This document shows positions 54,547 to 63,944 of a DNA stretch of 64,000 nucleotides, one piece after another; position 1 is the stretch's first letter, and each line of letters opens with the position of its first letter. The position numbers and the translations under genes were made by a program. This stretch comes from Enterococcus sp. DIV0212c (lineage in GTDB: Bacteria; Bacillota; Bacilli; Lactobacillales; Enterococcaceae): the NCBI RefSeq assembly GCF_017377505.1, contig NZ_JAFREN010000003.1, positions 124,001 to 188,000 of the forward strand, read 5' to 3'. The notes under the pieces were generated by a model. That model was given only the letters and a program-made list of their open reading frames with translations. It did not search any database and had not been told where the DNA came from.

Positions 54547-55860
54547 CTATTTTTTTAACCGGTTTGTAGGCAAAGTAAATGAGGCTACAAAAAAATTGTT
54601 TTCTCTAGAAAAAGAATAAGTTACTTTTCGATATTGTTTCAATAGTTTAACAAAAATAGGGATTCCTTTTCCTTGATGTCCCTTCTTAGTTGTAAAATTA
54701 TTTTTAAAAATTTTTTCAATCACAATTGGTGCTTCGGACTTATTTTTGACTTCAATAAACAAGTCTTGGTTTTTATGTATCATTGTCAGCTGAATTAGTG
54801 GTTTTTCTACGGCAACAGAAGCTTCTACTGCATTGTCTAAAAGAATGGATAGGCAACGAATAAAATCAACTAAATTGATTGTTAGATCAAAATCAGAAAT
54901 ATTTTGATCTGTAAAAAACTGAACGGGTATCTTTAGATTTGCACATTTTTCAAAAAAATGGAGCAATAATCCTTGTACAGCAGGAATATTGATTGTGGAG
55001 ATTTGGGCATAGTAGTTCGTTTCAGTAAAAGATTTAGAATAGTTGATAATAGACGATAGATACGTACTTGCTTGTTCAAATTGTTTTTGATCAAGATACG
55101 TATTTAAACTTAAAAGAATATTTCGATAATCATGTCTAAACTCATTAGCTAAGTCGATGTTTTGTAATTCTCTTGCCGTTTTTTTAGAAAGAAGAGAAAT
55201 TTGTGTTTGTTGTTGATAAAAGCGGCTAATTATATATATTAGATAACAAAAAACAATTGAAAGAGCTAGTAATATAAGTGTTAACTGGAAAAAAGGTAGG
55301 AGTCCAAACTGAACAATACTACCTTGTCTGAGAATATTTAAAGAATAAAGTAAAACGAAACCAAAAACGGATGTAGCGATATATTTCTTTTGAAGTTGCG
55401 CAATAGAATTAAAAATTGAGTACTTACTACTAATCTTTTTTACTATTAATAATAGAGCAACCTGCAATAGCTGCTGCGAAAAAATAGCTATGGGCTTAAA
55501 GTAGAGAAATTGTTCTGGTGAAATTATATCTTTCAACCGTGAAATATAAATAATATCCCACGTAAATAGCCAAGAAATAAGCATGACCATATTTTGTAAT
55601 ATTGAATAAAGTAAAGTCAAAGCCCAGCTTTTTGTGAAATAGAGTATAAATCCTAATTCAATTAAAATAAAAGGAATAAGTAGACTGAAACTGAAATTAG
55701 TACTAATAAAATAATTGATAAGTAAAAGAAAAAACATGTATCCCGTTAAAATAAATGTTTGCTGGGGCGAAAAGTATTTTTTATAGCCGACAATCCAACA
55801 TGTTTGCAAAAGATTGACTGCAAATAAAGTAGTTACAATAGTTAATACTGACGCTTCCAT
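54547..55860 (-). CDS. GHKL-family sensor histidine kinase (AgrC-like)
   Basis: 437 residues. Six to seven membrane helices fill residues 1-215. The phosphorylated histidine is in EFRHDYRNILLSL near residue 240, the N box in SILLDNAVEAS near residue 345, and a glycine loop in HQGKGIPIF near residue 400. This is the architecture of peptide-sensing kinases paired with LytTR regulators. No AgrB or AgrD homologue is adjacent, so the signal is unknown. Starts 29 bp after the regulator gene; ATG after GGAGG. Confidence 0.87.
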   Translation of the reverse strand: MEASVLTIVTTLFAVNLLQTCWIVGYKKYFSPQQTFILTGYMFFLLLINYFISTNFSFSLLIPFILIELGFILYFTKSWALTLLYSILQNMVMLISWLFTWDIIYISRLKDIISPEQFLYFKPIAIFSQQLLQVALLLIVKKISSKYSIFNSIAQLQKKYIATSVFGFVLLYSLNILRQGSIVQFGLLPFFQLTLILLALSIVFCYLIYIISRFYQQQTQISLLSKKTARELQNIDLANEFRHDYRNILLSLNTYLDQKQFEQASTYLSSIINYSKSFTETNYYAQISTINIPAVQGLLLHFFEKCANLKIPVQFFTDQNISDFDLTINLVDFIRCLSILLDNAVEASVAVEKPLIQLTMIHKNQDLFIEVKNKSEAPIVIEKIFKNNFTTKKGHQGKGIPIFVKLLKQYRKVTYSFSRENNFFVASFTLPTNRLKK

Positions 55861-55889
55861 GATTTACACCTCCAGTGGTTCTTGCTTTA

Positions 55890-56639
55890 CTATAAAACTT
55901 TATTTAACTTATCAATGATGCTAAGCCCAACCTCTAACTCATAGCCGCCATTAAATATAATTAACCCAATTGAACGATTCAATGATTGAAGCTGATTTAG
56001 ATTGATAATATACGATTTCAAACCAGTGTAAAGATAAGGGGTAGTGATTTCTTTTCTTAACTTGCTAATGGAACCTTCAACTATCTGTTCAGAATTGATC
56101 GTATGGACTGCCAATGTACCTCGCATTCCGGATACAGAAGTAATGTAGAGAATGTCTTCGTATTTAATGAAGATAATTTCACCAAATTTTTTAAAAGAGA
56201 TGTAATTATCTTTATTTTGTATACGTTTAATGATTTCCATTTTTATAGAATGAAATAGGCTTTCAAAGATGGAAGTATCTAAGCTAGTACCTTTAATAAT
56301 GTATGATTTTGCATTAATATCTTGATTAATGATTTCTAAGGCTTTATCTTCTAAGTTTGTTAAAAATAGAATAAAACAGTTCTTATTTTTCTGACGAATT
56401 TCTTTAGCAAGTTCAATACCAGAATAATAGGATTGTAAATCAATATCGACAAGAAAAATATCATTATCTAAGATGATTAAATTATTTAGTGTAGAGAAAA
56501 AAGAGTCAAAATTCTCCACAGCAATCACTTCCAAAGAAAAGTAGTCGTCTGATAATGGCAATGACTCAACAATATCGTGAGTTTTCTTCCGAAATACAAA
56601 ATCATCTTCAATGATGTAAACGCGAATGACTCCATCCAC
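55890..56639 (-). CDS. LytTR-family response regulator (AgrA-like)
   Basis: 249 residues. Receiver domain (residues 5-125) with acidic pair IIEDD and the phospho-acceptor aspartate in FLVDIDLQ near residue 61. LytTR DNA-binding domain (about 145-249, DILYITSVSGMRGTLAV). The GTG at 56639 has GAGAGG nine bases upstream; the ATG at 56648 abuts that site and is less likely. Forms an operon with the kinase. Candidate targets are promoters A (54019) and B (56815). Confidence 0.87.
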   Translation of the reverse strand: MDGVIRVYIIEDDFVFRKKTHDIVESLPLSDDYFSLEVIAVENFDSFFSTLNNLIILDNDIFLVDIDLQSYYSGIELAKEIRQKNKNCFILFLTNLEDKALEIINQDINAKSYIIKGTSLDTSIFESLFHSIKMEIIKRIQNKDNYISFKKFGEIIFIKYEDILYITSVSGMRGTLAVHTINSEQIVEGSISKLRKEITTPYLYTGLKSYIINLNQLQSLNRSIGLIIFNGGYELEVGLSIIDKLNKVL

Positions 56640-56675
56640 TATACTCATCCTCTCTTTTTTATATTTTTCTCATTT

Positions 56676-58130: not shown

Positions 58131-58278
58131 GTTTTTAGGTTGGATTGTATTTATATAAAAAGATATCGATAAAATGAAAAAACGCACCAAACTGATTTGG
58201 AAGCGTTTCATTTCAAGTCGTTTATATTTTAGTTTAAGTATACTAATGTTGTTGATGAAACAGAGGTGAAAAAAATTC

Positions 58279-58304
58279 TTTTTCTCAGAATTAGTCCTTC
58301 TAAG
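58279..58304 (-). repeat. Left inverted repeat of putative invertible segment
   Basis: Perfect 26-bp inverted copy of 59724-59749. Read on the minus strand it contains CTTAGAA and TTCTGAG as near-symmetric 7-bp arms around the 7-bp GGACTAA, the layout of a tyrosine-recombinase core site with crossover region. Confidence 0.75.
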
Positions 58305-58359
58305 AAGAAGAATCAATAGGGTAATCACATTGTTTAGCTCAAAAACATTCACAAAATTT

Positions 58360-58388
58360 ATTATAATATAAAGAAAAAGAAAAGTCTA
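58360..58388 (-). promoter_or_regulatory. Outward-facing promoter inside the invertible segment
   Basis: On the minus strand TAGACT, 17 bp, TATAAT. It points left through the left repeat toward the 3-prime side of ldh. After inversion it would point right, through the right repeat, at the regulator at 59822. Confidence 0.5.
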
Positions 58389-58470
58389 TAGTAAAATAAT
58401 GTGAATTATTTAATTTTTATCTCCTTATATCATGGGAATAATGTTGAAAAACAACAATTTATTTATTTAA

Positions 58471-58490
58471 AGCCGTCAAATACATGGTCA
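58471..58490 (+). repeat. Direct repeat DR1 left of the recombinase gene
   Basis: AGCCGTCAAA, three bases, ATGGTCA; repeated at 59659-59678 with 17 of 20 positions identical. Possible arm-type binding site of the recombinase. Confidence 0.6.
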
Positions 58491-58509
58491 AGCAGAAAGG
58501 AAGTAACTC

Positions 58510-59625
58510 ATGGCTAAAAAGGGAGAAAATATTTATAAAAGAAGAGACGGCCGCTGGGAAGGTAGATACCGTAAAGGTCGAAATAAGCAGGGAAAACTAG
58601 TGTATGGCTATGTATACGGACAAAAATACAGCGAAGTCAAAGTAGAATTAGAACGAATCAAATCACATTATCGTTTTCAAATGCAACACGCTGATTTTTT
58701 TCAAGGAACAGTAGAAGAATGGTTGGTTTATTGGCTAGATCACTTGATTATCCGACAAATCAAACAGTCCACGTACGCGTCTTATCAAACTAAAATGCAC
58801 AATCATATCCTTCCCTATCTAGGGAAGAAAAAGCTGAGTAAACTCAGTAAAAAAGACATCCTTGAAGTGTTGTTTCTTTTATCAGATAAAGGTTTAAGTA
58901 CAACAAGTATCCACAATACCTTGACGATTTTTAAAAGTGCTATCAATAAAGCATATACGGAAAAAGCAATCTTAGATAATCCTTTTGATGGTGTTGTCTT
59001 TCCTCCAATTAAGAAAAAAGAGATTGGTGTATTATCCGTTGAACAACAAAGAAAATTAGAAAAAGTAGCTTTACAAAACACCGAGTGTTCACCCGTCATT
59101 ATTGCTTTATATACCGGACTTAGGATTGGAGAAATCAGTGGTCTAACATGGTCAGACATTGACTTAGAAAATAAAATTATTCATGTCGTCCGGACAATCC
59201 AAAGGGTTTCTGTCACTGGTAAATCCGCAAAGACCGAAGTGATTTTCGATTTACCAAAATCAAAAAATTCTGTTAGAAAAATACCGATAGCTCAAAATCT
59301 ACTAACGTACTTAACGGAAAAGAAAAAAATATCTGTTGGAAACTATGTAGTGAACAATAAAAACTCTTTTGCAGAGCCGCGACTGATCAATTATCACTTT
59401 AAACAAACCGTGGAACAGGCAAAGATTCCCTCGATCCATTTCCATGCGTTACGGCATACATTTGCCACACGTTGTATTGAAAATGGCATCGACATTGCGA
59501 CGTTAAGTCGATTACTGGGGCATCAGTCAATTAAACTAACGCTTGATACGTACGCAGGATCCCTATGGGAAACAAGAGAACAAGCAATGTCGATAGTAGA
59601 TGCGACATTAAATTTAAATGGCTAA
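58510..59625 (+). CDS. Tyrosine recombinase (phage/Tn916-type integrase)
   Basis: 371 residues. N-terminal arm-binding (AP2-like) domain with IYKRRDGRWEGRYRKG near residue 9, a SAM-like core-binding domain (about 65-150), and a complete catalytic domain: arginine in ALYTGLRIGEISG, HALRHTFATR, LGHQS and the nucleophile tyrosine in LDTYAG. It starts at ATG after AGAAAGGAAG. No excisionase, relaxase or phage genes are nearby. The gene lies between direct repeats and, further out, perfect inverted repeats, so it may act as a DNA invertase. Confidence 0.92.
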   Translation: MAKKGENIYKRRDGRWEGRYRKGRNKQGKLVYGYVYGQKYSEVKVELERIKSHYRFQMQHADFFQGTVEEWLVYWLDHLIIRQIKQSTYASYQTKMHNHILPYLGKKKLSKLSKKDILEVLFLLSDKGLSTTSIHNTLTIFKSAINKAYTEKAILDNPFDGVVFPPIKKKEIGVLSVEQQRKLEKVALQNTECSPVIIALYTGLRIGEISGLTWSDIDLENKIIHVVRTIQRVSVTGKSAKTEVIFDLPKSKNSVRKIPIAQNLLTYLTEKKKISVGNYVVNNKNSFAEPRLINYHFKQTVEQAKIPSIHFHALRHTFATRCIENGIDIATLSRLLGHQSIKLTLDTYAGSLWETREQAMSIVDATLNLNG

Positions 59626-59658
59626 CTAGTCAGGAAAAAGCACTAGGCTCGATTTGGT

Positions 59659-59678
59659 AGCCGTCAAAAAAATGGTCA
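59659..59678 (+). repeat. Direct repeat DR2 right of the recombinase gene
   Basis: AGCCGTCAAA, AAA, ATGGTCA; partner of DR1 at 58471-58490. The pair flanks the recombinase gene closely. Confidence 0.6.
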
Positions 59679-59723
59679 CTTTAAATAAGAAGTGTTGCTG
59701 TAAAAAGAGCGAGTATGATTCAA

Positions 59724-59749
59724 CTTAGAAGGACTAATTCTGAGAAAAA
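59724..59749 (+). repeat. Right inverted repeat of putative invertible segment
   Basis: Perfect 26-bp inverse of 58279-58304, with partial similarity continuing on both sides (GATTC before it, AATTT after it). Lies 72 bp upstream of the winged-helix regulator gene. Confidence 0.75.
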
Positions 59750-59821: not shown

Positions 59822-60538
59822 ATGATAAACATAGGGATTATTTCAAACAAACAAGATACATATTCCTCATACATAGAAGTACTTCATGAAAAAAAATTAT
59901 CACTTTTGAAATTAGACGATGAATTTAATAGTGTAGCTGATTCTTCTATAGACATTATAATCATTGACTATTCCGAACAATCTAGTGAAGAGGTGATGTT
60001 AAATATATGCGAACTTTTAGTTAGTAAGAAAGTAAGTAATCCTGAGATTATTTTTGTGATAGTCAAGGAATCAAAAAAAATAGACCGTATGGTACTTCTC
60101 CAATTGGGCGTGACTCAAGTATTTGATCAGCAAACTGCTCCGGATGAATTTTCTCTTTTACTATCGAATCTATTGAATACAAAAAATATGGGACAGTTAG
60201 AACCGGTAGAAGTAGAACCGGAAGAAAGTAATCGTTCTATTGAATTGTTGCCAAACCGCTTTGTTATCAGAGTAGATGGCAGAGGGGAAATATTTCTTAC
60301 TAAGTTAGAGTTTAAATTACTAGATCATTTAAACAAAAATGAAGGACAATTCTCTAGCTACAGCGAACTTATGAAGGCTCTATGGATGGAACCTTTAACA
60401 CTAGAAAACGGCCGTTCACGGATTGCAAATATTGTGTTTCATATTAGAACAAAAATAGAAGAAAACCCATCAAATCCAGTCTATCTTAAAACTGTACGTA
60501 ACAAAGGGTATTTTCTCTCTGTAAAAGAAGATCAATAA
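59822..60538 (+). CDS. Orphan winged-helix regulator with receiver-like N-terminus
   Basis: 238 residues. Residues 1-115 fold like a response-regulator receiver but are degenerate: an aspartate is present in IIIIDYSEQ, while the usual acidic pair after the first strand is missing (GIISNKQD). The C-terminal OmpR-type winged helix spans about 140-235 (FLTKLEFKLLDHLNKNEG, SRIANIVFHIRTKIE, LKTVRNKGYFL). No histidine kinase is adjacent. It precedes the WxL operon and is the likely local regulator. It lies just outside the invertible segment. Confidence 0.82.
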   Translation: MINIGIISNKQDTYSSYIEVLHEKKLSLLKLDDEFNSVADSSIDIIIIDYSEQSSEEVMLNICELLVSKKVSNPEIIFVIVKESKKIDRMVLLQLGVTQVFDQQTAPDEFSLLLSNLLNTKNMGQLEPVEVEPEESNRSIELLPNRFVIRVDGRGEIFLTKLEFKLLDHLNKNEGQFSSYSELMKALWMEPLTLENGRSRIANIVFHIRTKIEENPSNPVYLKTVRNKGYFLSVKEDQ

Positions 60539-60590: not shown

Positions 60591-60697
60591 GAACCATTGC
60601 GGACCAATGTAATGGGCCCAATAGGGATGGTTCATAAATATTGCAAATAAAAGGCACCTCTAGTCTCTATCTCTAAACATAAAGAGACTAGAAGGTG
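60591..60697. other. Two hairpins in the leader of the WxL operon
   Basis: Hairpin 1 (60591-60633): GAACCAT with ATGGTTC plus an inner GG-CC stem; the T run is on the minus strand. Hairpin 2 (60655-60697): CACCT and CTAGTCTCT pair with AGAGACTAG and AGGTG, no T run. They occupy the 327-bp gap between the regulator and the next reliable start and may be mRNA control elements. Confidence 0.4.
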
Positions 60698-60865
60698 GTA
60701 GGTAATATAAAAAAATCATCTATCTATTGCATGATAGACAGTTGTTCTCAAAAAACAAGTGTATCAAGTGAAGCATTAAAAACGAATAGTTTTTTTGAAG
60801 AGAAAAAAATTCAGTATGTATTGATAGAGATTAAGAAAAAAAAACAAAGGATTGATGAGGTAGTT

Positions 60866-61522
60866 ATGGTCCAACCAATAGAAACGACCCAAACCCAAAA
60901 TAAATTTATTTACCTATTCGTAGGATTAGCATTAGCTGCGATGGCTCTATACGTGAGTAAATTTTATCTTTTTTATCAAGATGCGTATTTTTATATTGAC
61001 AAGAGTCGCACACTTTTTTACCAAATTATTTCTTTTTTGAATGATAACTGGATAGAATCACTGATGTATCTTAGTTTAAGTTTTTTAGTATATGTTGCTC
61101 TATTTTTCTTCAGCACAATTGGCCATTTTTTTAAAAAGAATCACAAAGAGCAACGACTTTATTACTTTTTTTACGGTGTAAGTATTCTAACCGTAGTTGC
61201 TTCATTCTTTACCATATTGTGGCCAATTTTTCTAGTGATTATTGTGTTAAGTATGAGTGTTGTTTACATCATCTTTGTTCTTAGCTTCACGATGGCTAAA
61301 AAGACAGCGAACGATGAAGAAAGGGATCTGCTTGAAATTATAGGGCCTTTTCAAACAGAAACAGAAGCGGAAGAAAGAGCCCAAATGTTTATACATGATT
61401 TTTTCGATAAGAAAAGTTTGGTCGCAGAAAAGGAAATTTATTTAGATGAAAACAACCACTATTATGTAGAGCTGTTTTACCATATGGATGTTCCTCATCA
61501 ATCAAGTAAGGAGAAGCAATAA
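60866..61522 (+). CDS. WxL-locus membrane protein, unknown function
   Basis: 218 residues from the ATG at 60866, chosen for TGAGG six bases upstream; the frame is open back to a GTG at 60695 but without a ribosome site. Three to four membrane helices (about residues 12-32, 62-84, 98-118, 120-142) and a charged cytoplasmic C-terminal domain (FQTETEAEERAQMFIHDFF) follow. Not recognised. It lies between the regulator and the DUF916 gene, so a role in surface-protein assembly or signalling is inferred only from position. Confidence 0.6.
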   Translation: MVQPIETTQTQNKFIYLFVGLALAAMALYVSKFYLFYQDAYFYIDKSRTLFYQIISFLNDNWIESLMYLSLSFLVYVALFFFSTIGHFFKKNHKEQRLYYFFYGVSILTVVASFFTILWPIFLVIIVLSMSVVYIIFVLSFTMAKKTANDEERDLLEIIGPFQTETEAEERAQMFIHDFFDKKSLVAEKEIYLDENNHYYVELFYHMDVPHQSSKEKQ

Positions 61523-61526
61523 CAAG

Positions 61527-62609
61527 ATGAAAACAAATAAAATACTGTATGTCCTTTTGCTGCTAAGTTTTTTTTCCTTTGTCTTCCCACAAAAAGTGAA
61601 TGCGAAAGAAGAAACAAATTTAGGGTACACTGTTTCAGCAGTTCGTAGTAGCAAACAAATAGATCCAGAAAAAAGTTATTTCTATATTCAAACATCTCCA
61701 GGTGTGGAAGAGGAATTAAAAGTAAAAGTAAAAAGTACACAGAAAGAAAAAGTACGTATTAAAATTTATGCCGAAGATGCTTTTACTGGTGACGGAGGAA
61801 CGATTGAATATACCACAGATTCAAAAGCATTGGACGAGACCTTAAAAGATCCTATCCGTTCATTGACAACAATAGAAACACCAAATATCTCTGTAGAGAA
61901 TTATGAAGAAAAAGAAGTAGTCATCAAAGTAAAACCTCCCAAACTACCGTATGACGGGATAAAAATGGGAGCGCTCGTTTTTCAATTAGAGAATAAAGAC
62001 GAGGGGGAAACTGTCGGCAATAAGTTTTCGTATCGAATAGGGCTTTTTGCATCAGAAACCGGTGATGATTACAAAAATTCAAAAACATTAAATTTAACTG
62101 AGGTAAAAGCAAGTATTAAACGAGGCAAGAAAATGGTTTTGGGAACGCTACAAAATCCAGAGTCTAAGATTTTGACGAATTTACAACTAATGGCAACAAT
62201 TCAGGAAAAAGGAAAAACAGACATCGTTAAAGAAAAAAAAGTTGAAAATTACATGCTTGCGCCAAATAGTCACTTTGATTTGGAAATGGATTGGGGAACC
62301 AATCAAATAAAGGCAGGAACGTATATACTTAAAATAAAAGGAAACAATCAGTTAAATGAGTGGTCATTTGAAAAAGAGTTTATTATAAGCGGTGAACAAG
62401 CAAAAAAAATGAACGAAGAAAGTGGTTTTAAAATTATTACTCCGACATGGGTAAAGATTGCGACAATTCTATCCTTTATTGGAGTAGTTTTACTGGTCAT
62501 AGGACTTGTCATACGTCGGAAAAAACTGACGAAAGAGTGGCAAAAAAGAAAAAATAGACGAAAAAGAAAGAGAAAAATGAAAGAGGGACAAAAAAATGAA
62601 AAAATATAG
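61527..62609 (+). CDS. WxL-interacting protein (DUF916/DUF3324)
   Basis: 360 residues. Signal peptide 1-27 (ending KVNA), a DUF916 immunoglobulin-like domain (about 30-160, GYTVSAVRSSKQIDPEKSYF), DUF3324 (about 165-300), a membrane helix (about 310-332, IATILSFIGVVLLVIGLVI) and a very basic tail. In enterococci such proteins bind WxL proteins and may bridge them to peptidoglycan or host matrix. AAGGAG precedes the ATG at an unusually long 13 bp. Confidence 0.88.
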   Translation: MKTNKILYVLLLLSFFSFVFPQKVNAKEETNLGYTVSAVRSSKQIDPEKSYFYIQTSPGVEEELKVKVKSTQKEKVRIKIYAEDAFTGDGGTIEYTTDSKALDETLKDPIRSLTTIETPNISVENYEEKEVVIKVKPPKLPYDGIKMGALVFQLENKDEGETVGNKFSYRIGLFASETGDDYKNSKTLNLTEVKASIKRGKKMVLGTLQNPESKILTNLQLMATIQEKGKTDIVKEKKVENYMLAPNSHFDLEMDWGTNQIKAGTYILKIKGNNQLNEWSFEKEFIISGEQAKKMNEESGFKIITPTWVKIATILSFIGVVLLVIGLVIRRKKLTKEWQKRKNRRKRKRKMKEGQKNEKI

Positions 62610-62925
62610 CATTATCGTTCTTTGTCTGATGGGAATGAGTAGCTTCCTTTTTTGTACGAATGTGCAGGCAACGGAAAAGTCTGACCAAACGAATGTGGGT
62701 ATTTCCTTTTTGAAAGAAGAAATGTCATTGAATCCAACGAAACCTGTCGTTCCATCGTCAGTAGAGACTTTTCCTCTAGTAAAGCCTAGTGGGAAATTAC
62801 CTTCTACAGGGGAGCTTGTAACCTCTGTTATGATGACGTTTATTGGACTTTCTTTTGTCATCATTTTTGTAGGGATCTATAGTCTAAGACGCGTCATGAT
62901 AAGTAGTGCATGGGAGGGAGTATAA
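62596..62925 (+). CDS. Small sortase-anchored LPXTG surface protein
   Basis: 109 residues. Signal peptide 1-26 (ending VQA), a short mature part, LPSTGE sortase motif near residue 70, membrane helix (about 75-97) and a positively charged end (LRR). The C-terminal tail is longer than usual. Small LPXTG proteins of this kind are typical members of WxL operons. It overlaps the DUF916 gene by 14 bp. Confidence 0.85.
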   Translation: MKKYSIIVLCLMGMSSFLFCTNVQATEKSDQTNVGISFLKEEMSLNPTKPVVPSSVETFPLVKPSGKLPSTGELVTSVMMTFIGLSFVIIFVGIYSLRRVMISSAWEGV

Positions 62926-62929
62926 AGAA

Positions 62930-63151
62930 ATGGATTATATTTGGTTATTCTATTTGGGAGGAATAGCGACTGTGTCGCTTCTAATTTTTTTGATGACCTT
63001 GTCAAAAGACACATTTTTACTTACGAAGTTAAGAAAATCAAAGAGTGGGTTTCTTTTAAATTTTAGTTTATTATTCATCACGTTAGGTGATTTGGGAATT
63101 ATAATTTACCTCTTTAATCTTTTACGTGAACAAATAGATCTGCTTAGCTAA
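62930..63151 (+). CDS. Small two-helix membrane protein
   Basis: 73 residues from the ATG at 62930 after GGGAGGGAG. Two membrane helices (about residues 4-23 and 43-64) are joined by a basic loop (TKLRKSKSG). Not recognised. Its place between the LPXTG and WxL genes suggests an accessory role in this surface complex. Confidence 0.65.
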   Translation: MDYIWLFYLGGIATVSLLIFLMTLSKDTFLLTKLRKSKSGFLLNFSLLFITLGDLGIIIYLFNLLREQIDLLS

Positions 63152-63224: not shown

Positions 63225-63944
63225 ATGAAAAAAACAATAATGATTTCTTTACTTTCAACAGCAGCAATGATGATGTTTGCGACTTCAGCAGACGCAAAAT
63301 CTTTTGATGACAACACTGATGTAGGCGTAAGCTTCAAATCAGATGAACCAACAACACCAGGTGACAACAAACCTTACAAAGATAATTTATCACTAGTGTG
63401 GAAACCATCAAGTTTTGAATTTGGTCAACAAAAAGCTGTAGGTGGGGTTGCGACGTTTAACAATACTGTTGAAGGCAAACAATATTTAGTTGTCAATGAC
63501 GATCGTGGGGACGAAACATTGTCAACATGGGATTTAAAAGCAAAGTTTTCAGAAATGAAATCAGCAGATGGAAAAACAAAATTAACATCTAAATTGGTTT
63601 ATGGTTTAGGAGATTTACAAAGCTATGACATTGGGACTACTATTGATCCAGAGACAAATGATTTTATCGCACCAAATCCAGCAACAGATGAAGGAGCTTC
63701 ATCATTAGGAACGTTACCATCAGATTCTAAAGTAGTTTTAGGTGGAAACACGATGACATTAGAAGCTGGCAGTACAACAGCTACAACAGTGATGAATAAA
63801 ACTGAAGCGACTAAGACAAAAGGTGGATATGCGACTCTGATAAAAGATGTAAAATTAGTGGCAACAGATGCAAAGAAAAATTTAGCATCAGGTAAATCTT
63901 TTACAGGTCAAGTAACTTGGACATTGGATGATCTACAACCATAA
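63225..63944 (+). CDS. WxL-domain surface protein
   Basis: 239 residues. Signal peptide 1-24 (ending SADA). The mature N-terminus is followed by the WxL domain covering most of the protein, with the first motif near residue 58 (in NLSLVWKPSSFEFG) and the second at the very end (GQVTWTLDDLQP). WxL domains bind peptidoglycan non-covalently and DUF916 partners. Ribosome site AAAGGATGG. Last gene seen; the operon may continue past 64000. Confidence 0.92.
   Translation: MKKTIMISLLSTAAMMMFATSADAKSFDDNTDVGVSFKSDEPTTPGDNKPYKDNLSLVWKPSSFEFGQQKAVGGVATFNNTVEGKQYLVVNDDRGDETLSTWDLKAKFSEMKSADGKTKLTSKLVYGLGDLQSYDIGTTIDPETNDFIAPNPATDEGASSLGTLPSDSKVVLGGNTMTLEAGSTTATTVMNKTEATKTKGGYATLIKDVKLVATDAKKNLASGKSFTGQVTWTLDDLQP

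Follow-up and report, generated by a model that had tools for sequence, protein, structure and literature searches.

The Hin switch of the Salmonella flagellar system works by promoter inversion, and in the fim (FimB/FimE), RecV and Mpi systems short inverted repeats flip a promoter for surface genes, as we propose for the enterococcal family described here. The FimB/FimE and RecV recombinases are encoded outside the inverted segment, and RecV serves several sites. The Mpi recombinase also lies outside the inverted segment and serves several sites, as described in an excerpt of PMC5903667; unlike in these three systems, each enterococcal segment encodes its own enzyme. Hin shares with the family a recombinase gene that lies inside the invertible segment (PMC5903667, same excerpt), but it is a serine recombinase (PMC11868660, in the part available), whereas the family consists of tyrosine recombinases with an arm-binding-type domain and, unlike Hin, is present in many copies in the genus, with differing sites. 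The Tn916 and Tn1549 integrases have the same arm-binding-type N-terminus and are the closest solved structures by both sequence and fold; in contrast to them, the family is tied to no conjugative element, and its two cores are inverted, not direct, and bound the enzyme gene itself. Rci of the R64 shufflon is an inverting recombinase that is grouped with the arm-binding integrases yet has no arm-binding domain (both from an excerpt of PMC8138268), whereas the enterococcal enzymes keep the domain together with candidate arm sites and would flip a promoter where Rci shuffles coding segments. Among open-licence PMC papers, the scope of our literature search, no description of an enterococcal inversion switch at surface operons was found; the available parts of PMC2530867 and PMC4522977 do not contain the word 'recombinase', and that of PMC11868660 does not contain the term 'enterococc'.

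The window, a stretch of 64,000 nucleotides from Enterococcus sp. DIV0212c, very probably carries a self-contained invertible-promoter (phase-variation) cassette run by its own Tn916/Tn1549-type recombinase. In the proposed mechanism, the recombinase encoded inside the segment would recombine two inverted core sites and thereby flip the whole segment, and an outward promoter would ride along between the left repeat and the recombinase start. This promoter would be directed away from the regulator and the operon in the present orientation of the window (OFF), and after inversion would drive transcription across the repeat and on into the regulator gene and the surface operon (ON). We infer that the window copy is active and that its flip alters expression. 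The anatomy drawn in an earlier note on this DNA holds up; the outward promoter, the candidate arm-type repeats, the genus-wide family and the orientation bias described below were missing from it.

The left repeat (IRL, 58279-58304, forward strand) and the right repeat (IRR, 59724-59749, reverse strand) are perfect 26-bp inverted copies of TTTTTCTCAGAATTAGTCCTTCTAAG in the window sequence, and imperfect pairing extends to 58272-58309/59719-59756 (38 nt, 87%). With up to three mismatches allowed, this repeat occurred twice in the window and never in 100 shuffles, and only at two places in the 3.54-Mb assembly, namely IRL and IRR, so the perfect pair that the earlier note had pointed out is confirmed and found nowhere else in the genome. 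The repeats bound 1,419 bp holding the recombinase gene, with 205 and 98 bp of non-coding DNA inside them, somewhat less than the roughly 350 bp previously placed there. The core-site layout with a 7-bp crossover was rightly recognized, and 9-bp arms were now resolved: in IRL, the arms TTCTCAGAA/TTCTAAGAA (58282-58290 and 58298-58306) flank the asymmetric spacer TTAGTCC (58291-58297; GGACTAA on the other strand), and the inverted core site of IRR has a less perfect inner arm, TTCTAAGTT. These sites bound the recombinase gene alone, with no direct att sites around conjugation or cargo genes as in an integrative and conjugative element, and no target-site duplication was seen by eye beside the window repeats.

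Past IRR, the first gene and presumed switch target encodes an OmpR/PhoB-type winged-helix regulator (59822-60538; this and the following genes are all on the forward strand). It precedes a putative operon that comprises a protein of unknown family, whose Pfam matches are all sub-threshold (60695-61522), a WxL-interacting protein with WxLIP_PGBD and WxLIP_HBD domains (61488-62609) and a small LPXTG protein of the EF2685/EF0750 family (62596-62925), both by curated-family match, as well as a small 81-aa protein of unknown family (62906-63151) and a 239-aa protein with a signal-like N-terminus (63225-63944). The operon had been called a WxL surface-protein operon, and the matches to the WxL-interacting and small LPXTG families bear this out in part; the 239-aa protein, for which the WxL call had been made, has no Pfam match, and a genome-wide search for the WxL domain (PF13731) listed no match on the window's contig. 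The same genome (G000, 3.5 Mb) contains 67 PF13731 matches and 25 homologues of the regulator.

The recombinase ORF (58510-59625, forward strand, 371 aa) is intact and enclosed by the repeats, as had been claimed, and matches Phage_integrase with E=1.1e-24. Its residues R205, K250, H312, R315, H338 and Y348, which we take to be the catalytic six of tyrosine recombinases, do not vary in alignments with 18 and with 44 relatives; a cruder test for the catalytic motif was passed by 107 of the 119 repeat-bounded family members introduced below and failed by 12. In the AlphaFold2 model (mean pLDDT 86.2, pTM 0.70), the N-terminus forms strands at residues 8-10, 16-24 and 30-37 followed by a helix at 40-60, and three strands plus a helix constitute the arm-binding fold of the Tn916 subgroup (PMC8138268, in excerpt). 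The model thus displays the arm-binding domain, for which the Pfam search of this protein gave no match, and the best PDB match, by sequence and by fold, is the Tn1549 integrase. The best reading of the family enzyme is a Tn916-type arm-binding tyrosine recombinase. Candidate arm-type sites were located on the forward strand just 5′ of the recombinase start (AGCCGTCAAATACATGGTCA, 58471-58490) and between its stop and IRR (AGCCGTCAAAAAAATGGTCA, 59659-59678). Across the family, the motif GCCGTCAAA, with at most one mismatch, is present upstream of the recombinase in 107/119 cassettes, downstream in 74/119 and on neither side in 7, against a background of 0.035 per 200 bp, and it is often tandem, at a distance of 11-12 bp. 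These direct repeats are probably the arm sites, and those near the recombinase start could also govern recombinase expression.

The element belongs to a family spread through the genus. The window's own genome encodes nine full-length family recombinases, the other eight being 40-53% identical to that of the window, and all but one (L123) are enclosed by inverted repeats of their own and adjoined by a regulator of the same type. Of the 83 recombinases fetched first, 75 were enclosed by a repeat of score ≥17, against 0/83 control ORFs of 300-450 aa, taken from the fetched loci and tested identically; the inverted-repeat score, like the promoter matrix and the terminator score used below, is a simple measure devised for this analysis. 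When the survey was extended to 22 Enterococcus genomes, 119 of 149 distinct related recombinases were inside their own inverted repeats, the family comprising at least 149 members, since ORFs below 300 aa and identical copies had been dropped beforehand; further places lie outside the survey, for example G014:C23:263, contig-end copies in G002, and several in G018, G015 and G022. A homologue of the window regulator is located within 1.5 kb of the recombinase in 109/119 repeat-bounded members and about 2.3 kb downstream in L118, L140, L146 and L154, and was absent from the 6.5 kb scanned at L131, L200, L207, L230, L241 and L244. Within stretches of limited length, 87/109 had a homologue of the WxL-interacting protein or of the small LPXTG protein at a distance of up to 6.5 kb. 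Conversely, 8 of the 25 regulator homologues in the window's genome stand beside a family recombinase; regulators without a cassette are under-sampled in the survey because loci were picked by recombinase similarity. No short invertible segment of score ≥18 was found next to these 25 homologues, in a scan to which a full-size cassette, including the eight known ones, is invisible because its loci span just 1.5 kb each way.

In 75 repeat pairs, the core sites comprise a spacer of 5-9 bp between two arms of roughly 10 bp. The spacer is the same in both copies of a cassette in 72/75 pairs (exceptions L091, L112 and L143), core-site sequences vary between cassettes, and 44 pairs match without fault throughout the reported stretch. 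Spacer agreement by position comparison (634 versus 240 comparisons) is taken as supporting evidence only, as the pairs are non-independent and the repeats were selected for identity. The eight cores of the window's genome are all different, the closest being L124/L126 (85%), L127/L128 (80%) and L125/L127 (75%).

Among the 30 relatives without repeats of score ≥17, five have an adjoining regulator, including L246 with a repeat score of 16, and no convincing farther repeats were found within 4.5 kb, the matches at L156 and L198 being AT-rich. One such locus is L123 (G000:C23:20675-21751), and similar ones include L132, L190, L192-L196, L198, L199, L202-L206 and L208, which lie near WxL-interacting/LPXTG genes with no adjoining downstream regulator; L123 and L132 are positioned after a WxL-interacting gene and one further ORF. 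These recombinases may form a branch that is locked or serves a different use.

Inversion was traced by comparing orthologous cassettes. In L160 (G017, the same place as L157), the segment from repeat to repeat is flipped against both flanks in blastn alignments with L161 (91% aa identity) and L162 (89%), and in L231 (G003), the flanks are reversed around the segment relative to L125 of the window's genome, L201, L233, L238 and L240. In both cases the breakpoints fall at the repeats. To judge from these alignments, the two family loci have been inverted in the past, and both orientations occur in nature there, between species, which supports the self-contained inversion earlier proposed from the window alone. 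L133, L137 and L247, which align in reverse to L231's right flank with no orthologous cassette demonstrated, were not counted. A comparison of orientation in related genomes had been suggested for the window segment; it yielded the flips at those two other loci, and for the window locus itself a near-identical cassette in one other genome (L129, G018), in the same orientation in both genomes. Over the whole family the orientation is strongly biased: the regulator is downstream of and co-directional with the recombinase in 107/109 cassettes, and on the other side and divergent in two (L157 and L231). The recombinase-start end points away from the regulator in 107, which we read as OFF, and toward it in two, read as ON. 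The bias could come from selection in culture, a low rate or feedback, and the dominance of OFF is presumably brought about by selection or regulation.

The assignment of OFF and ON was based on the location of promoters and terminators. In the strip from IRL to the recombinase start, the best outward sigma-A-like promoter had a mean score of 10.24 versus 7.23 for shuffled strips and exceeded its own shuffle mean in 116/119 repeat-bounded cassettes, whereas the inward strand exceeded shuffles in 46/119 and was not enriched. Scores above shuffles were obtained in 42/119 for the right and 68/119 for the left end (D_left) of the strip between the recombinase and IRR, the latter slightly above shuffles, and in 32/93 for the strip between IRR and the regulator, in which neither promoter enrichment (93 cases) nor a terminator (92 cases) was found. 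Over a fixed 240 bp, the outward score was higher than the inward in 110/119 repeat-bounded cassettes versus 15/30 relatives without repeats. Since the reverse of the arm motif looks like a -35 box, and the motif was the best outward match in some cassettes, scoring was repeated with the motif masked, which gave mean scores of 10.19 outward, 6.69 inward and 6.54 shuffled; the outward score was then above its shuffle in 117/119 and above the inward in 108/119, compared with 14/30 relatives without repeats, and the -10 element was within 90 bp of IRL in 112/119. In the window, the predicted outward promoter TAGACT-17-TATAAT (58360-58388, reverse strand) reads toward IRL and would face the regulator once inverted; it is put forward on family conservation and is not significant alone (5 sites versus 8.3 expected in 2 kb). 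At the level of the family and in silico, the promoter faces its target in one orientation only.

In the present orientation, transcription from the window promoter would head for the end of ldh and cross a hairpin followed by a T run (58160-58222, reverse strand; -16.7 kcal/mol, z -3.7), a possible terminator for outward transcription that is absent from the consensus terminator scan and below threshold in a second simple scan. Downstream of the recombinase, terminator-like hairpins are present in 51% of the 119 cassettes versus 2% of shuffles; left of IRL they occur in about one third, in both directions. With an outward promoter, hairpins after the recombinase, and neither element between IRR and the regulator, the simplest assignment is therefore OFF for the common orientation and ON for the rare one. 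The opposite assignment, in which the common orientation is ON and the regulator is co-transcribed with the recombinase, would suit the co-directional arrangement in 107/109 and the window itself, where the terminator scans detected none between recombinase and regulator; we consider it very unlikely, given that inward promoters are not enriched while outward ones are, and that hairpins after the recombinase are so frequent in the family.

The outward promoter was also considered as a general driver of the left neighbour and rejected in that role, as the nearest left ORF of at least 120 aa is leftward in just 37/107 cassettes. In certain groups (L080-L086, L089, L090, L130 and L137 with a ~250-aa gene, L149-L152 with a ~500-aa gene), the left gene is leftward and about 70-330 bp from the repeat. 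In all of these groups, the outward promoter might therefore drive this gene in the common orientation; such service to a left neighbour is possible in some groups, and the cassette might act there as a two-way switch.

The cassettes are found before WxL-type operons and before other putative targets. On an E. raffinosus megaplasmid the target is a helix-turn-helix gene followed by secA2/secY2; at L146, an operon that encodes a prepilin-type protein and a glucosaminidase along with the regulator; and at L131, a GA-module/ChW surface protein. A VWA-domain protein is the target at L286, a locus from a single genome that belongs to a different family of the order. In an order-wide sample, 3/118 genomes gave a match at E≤1e-70, two in the genus and one outside. 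A protein search scored 8000 entries, of which 2003 were relatives at E≤1e-60, and within the best 120 of these the organism-named entries were all Enterococcus except one labelled Erwinia sp. A plasmid search with the window DNA as query gave no match; in seven named plasmid stretches, repeats reached a score of ≥17 in five (L251-L254 and L256) and of 15 in L250 and L255, the L254 recombinase not being an intact ORF. An outward promoter distinct from the arm motif, together with the CCGTCA motif, was present at five of six further loci (L286, L250 and L252-L254), the best outward match at L251 being the arm motif itself. Between L253 and L254, on E. raffinosus megaplasmids of two strains, the cassettes are 78% identical and the flanks 98.6% and 88.7%; because the cassettes diverge more than their flanks, they may be exchanged.

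Such exchange, the IS-like look of a single recombinase gene between inverted repeats, and the Tn1549 integrase as closest enzyme would all fit a small mobile element, either IS-like or the remnant of an integrative element, in which the repeats are terminal or att sites and inversion is incidental. This explanation is extremely improbable in view of the specific placement beside the same regulator type in 109/119, the inverted core sites with identical spacers, the conserved outward promoter and the lack, by eye, of a target duplication at the window repeats. Equally poor is the prospect that the repeats are now fixed operators and inversion a rare, historical event of no regulatory use, which the minority orientation in just 2/109 cassettes would favour, but for which an identical asymmetric spacer, agreeing within and differing between cassettes, would be needless, and which leaves the retained catalytic residues and promoter polarity unaccounted for.

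The self-inverting promoter cassette is hence the reading that we carry to the genus. There, we consider it reasonably likely that an integrase of ICE type, together with its arm-binding domain and its candidate arm sites, has been turned into a portable self-inverting promoter cassette, which was placed, kept and occasionally exchanged before many surface systems, such as WxL-type and prepilin operons, accessory Sec and a VWA protein, each copy with its own site; several independently addressable switches per genome (eight here) would then produce combinatorial clonal repertoires, mostly OFF in laboratory culture. If this is true, enterococci gain heritable, reversible variation of their cell-surface proteins, and the switch may explain the apparent silence of such surface operons in culture. 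The elr operon of E. faecalis, which is reportedly poorly expressed in vitro (PMC4522977, in the part available), offers a comparison, its Rgg-like regulator differing from the OmpR-like regulator of the cassettes. The family would further provide naturally occurring pairs of tyrosine recombinase and site that differ in their spacers, and an example of how an arm-binding integrase has been put to new use in inversion.

Two minor observations were made besides. Genome G019 (L133, L134 and L135) carries four cassettes with similar cores, three of them within ~31 kb on one contig, and recombination between these cassettes could lead to larger rearrangements. In the window, a pair of genes encoding a GHKL-type histidine kinase and a LytTR response regulator (54547-56648, reverse strand) is situated upstream of ldh.
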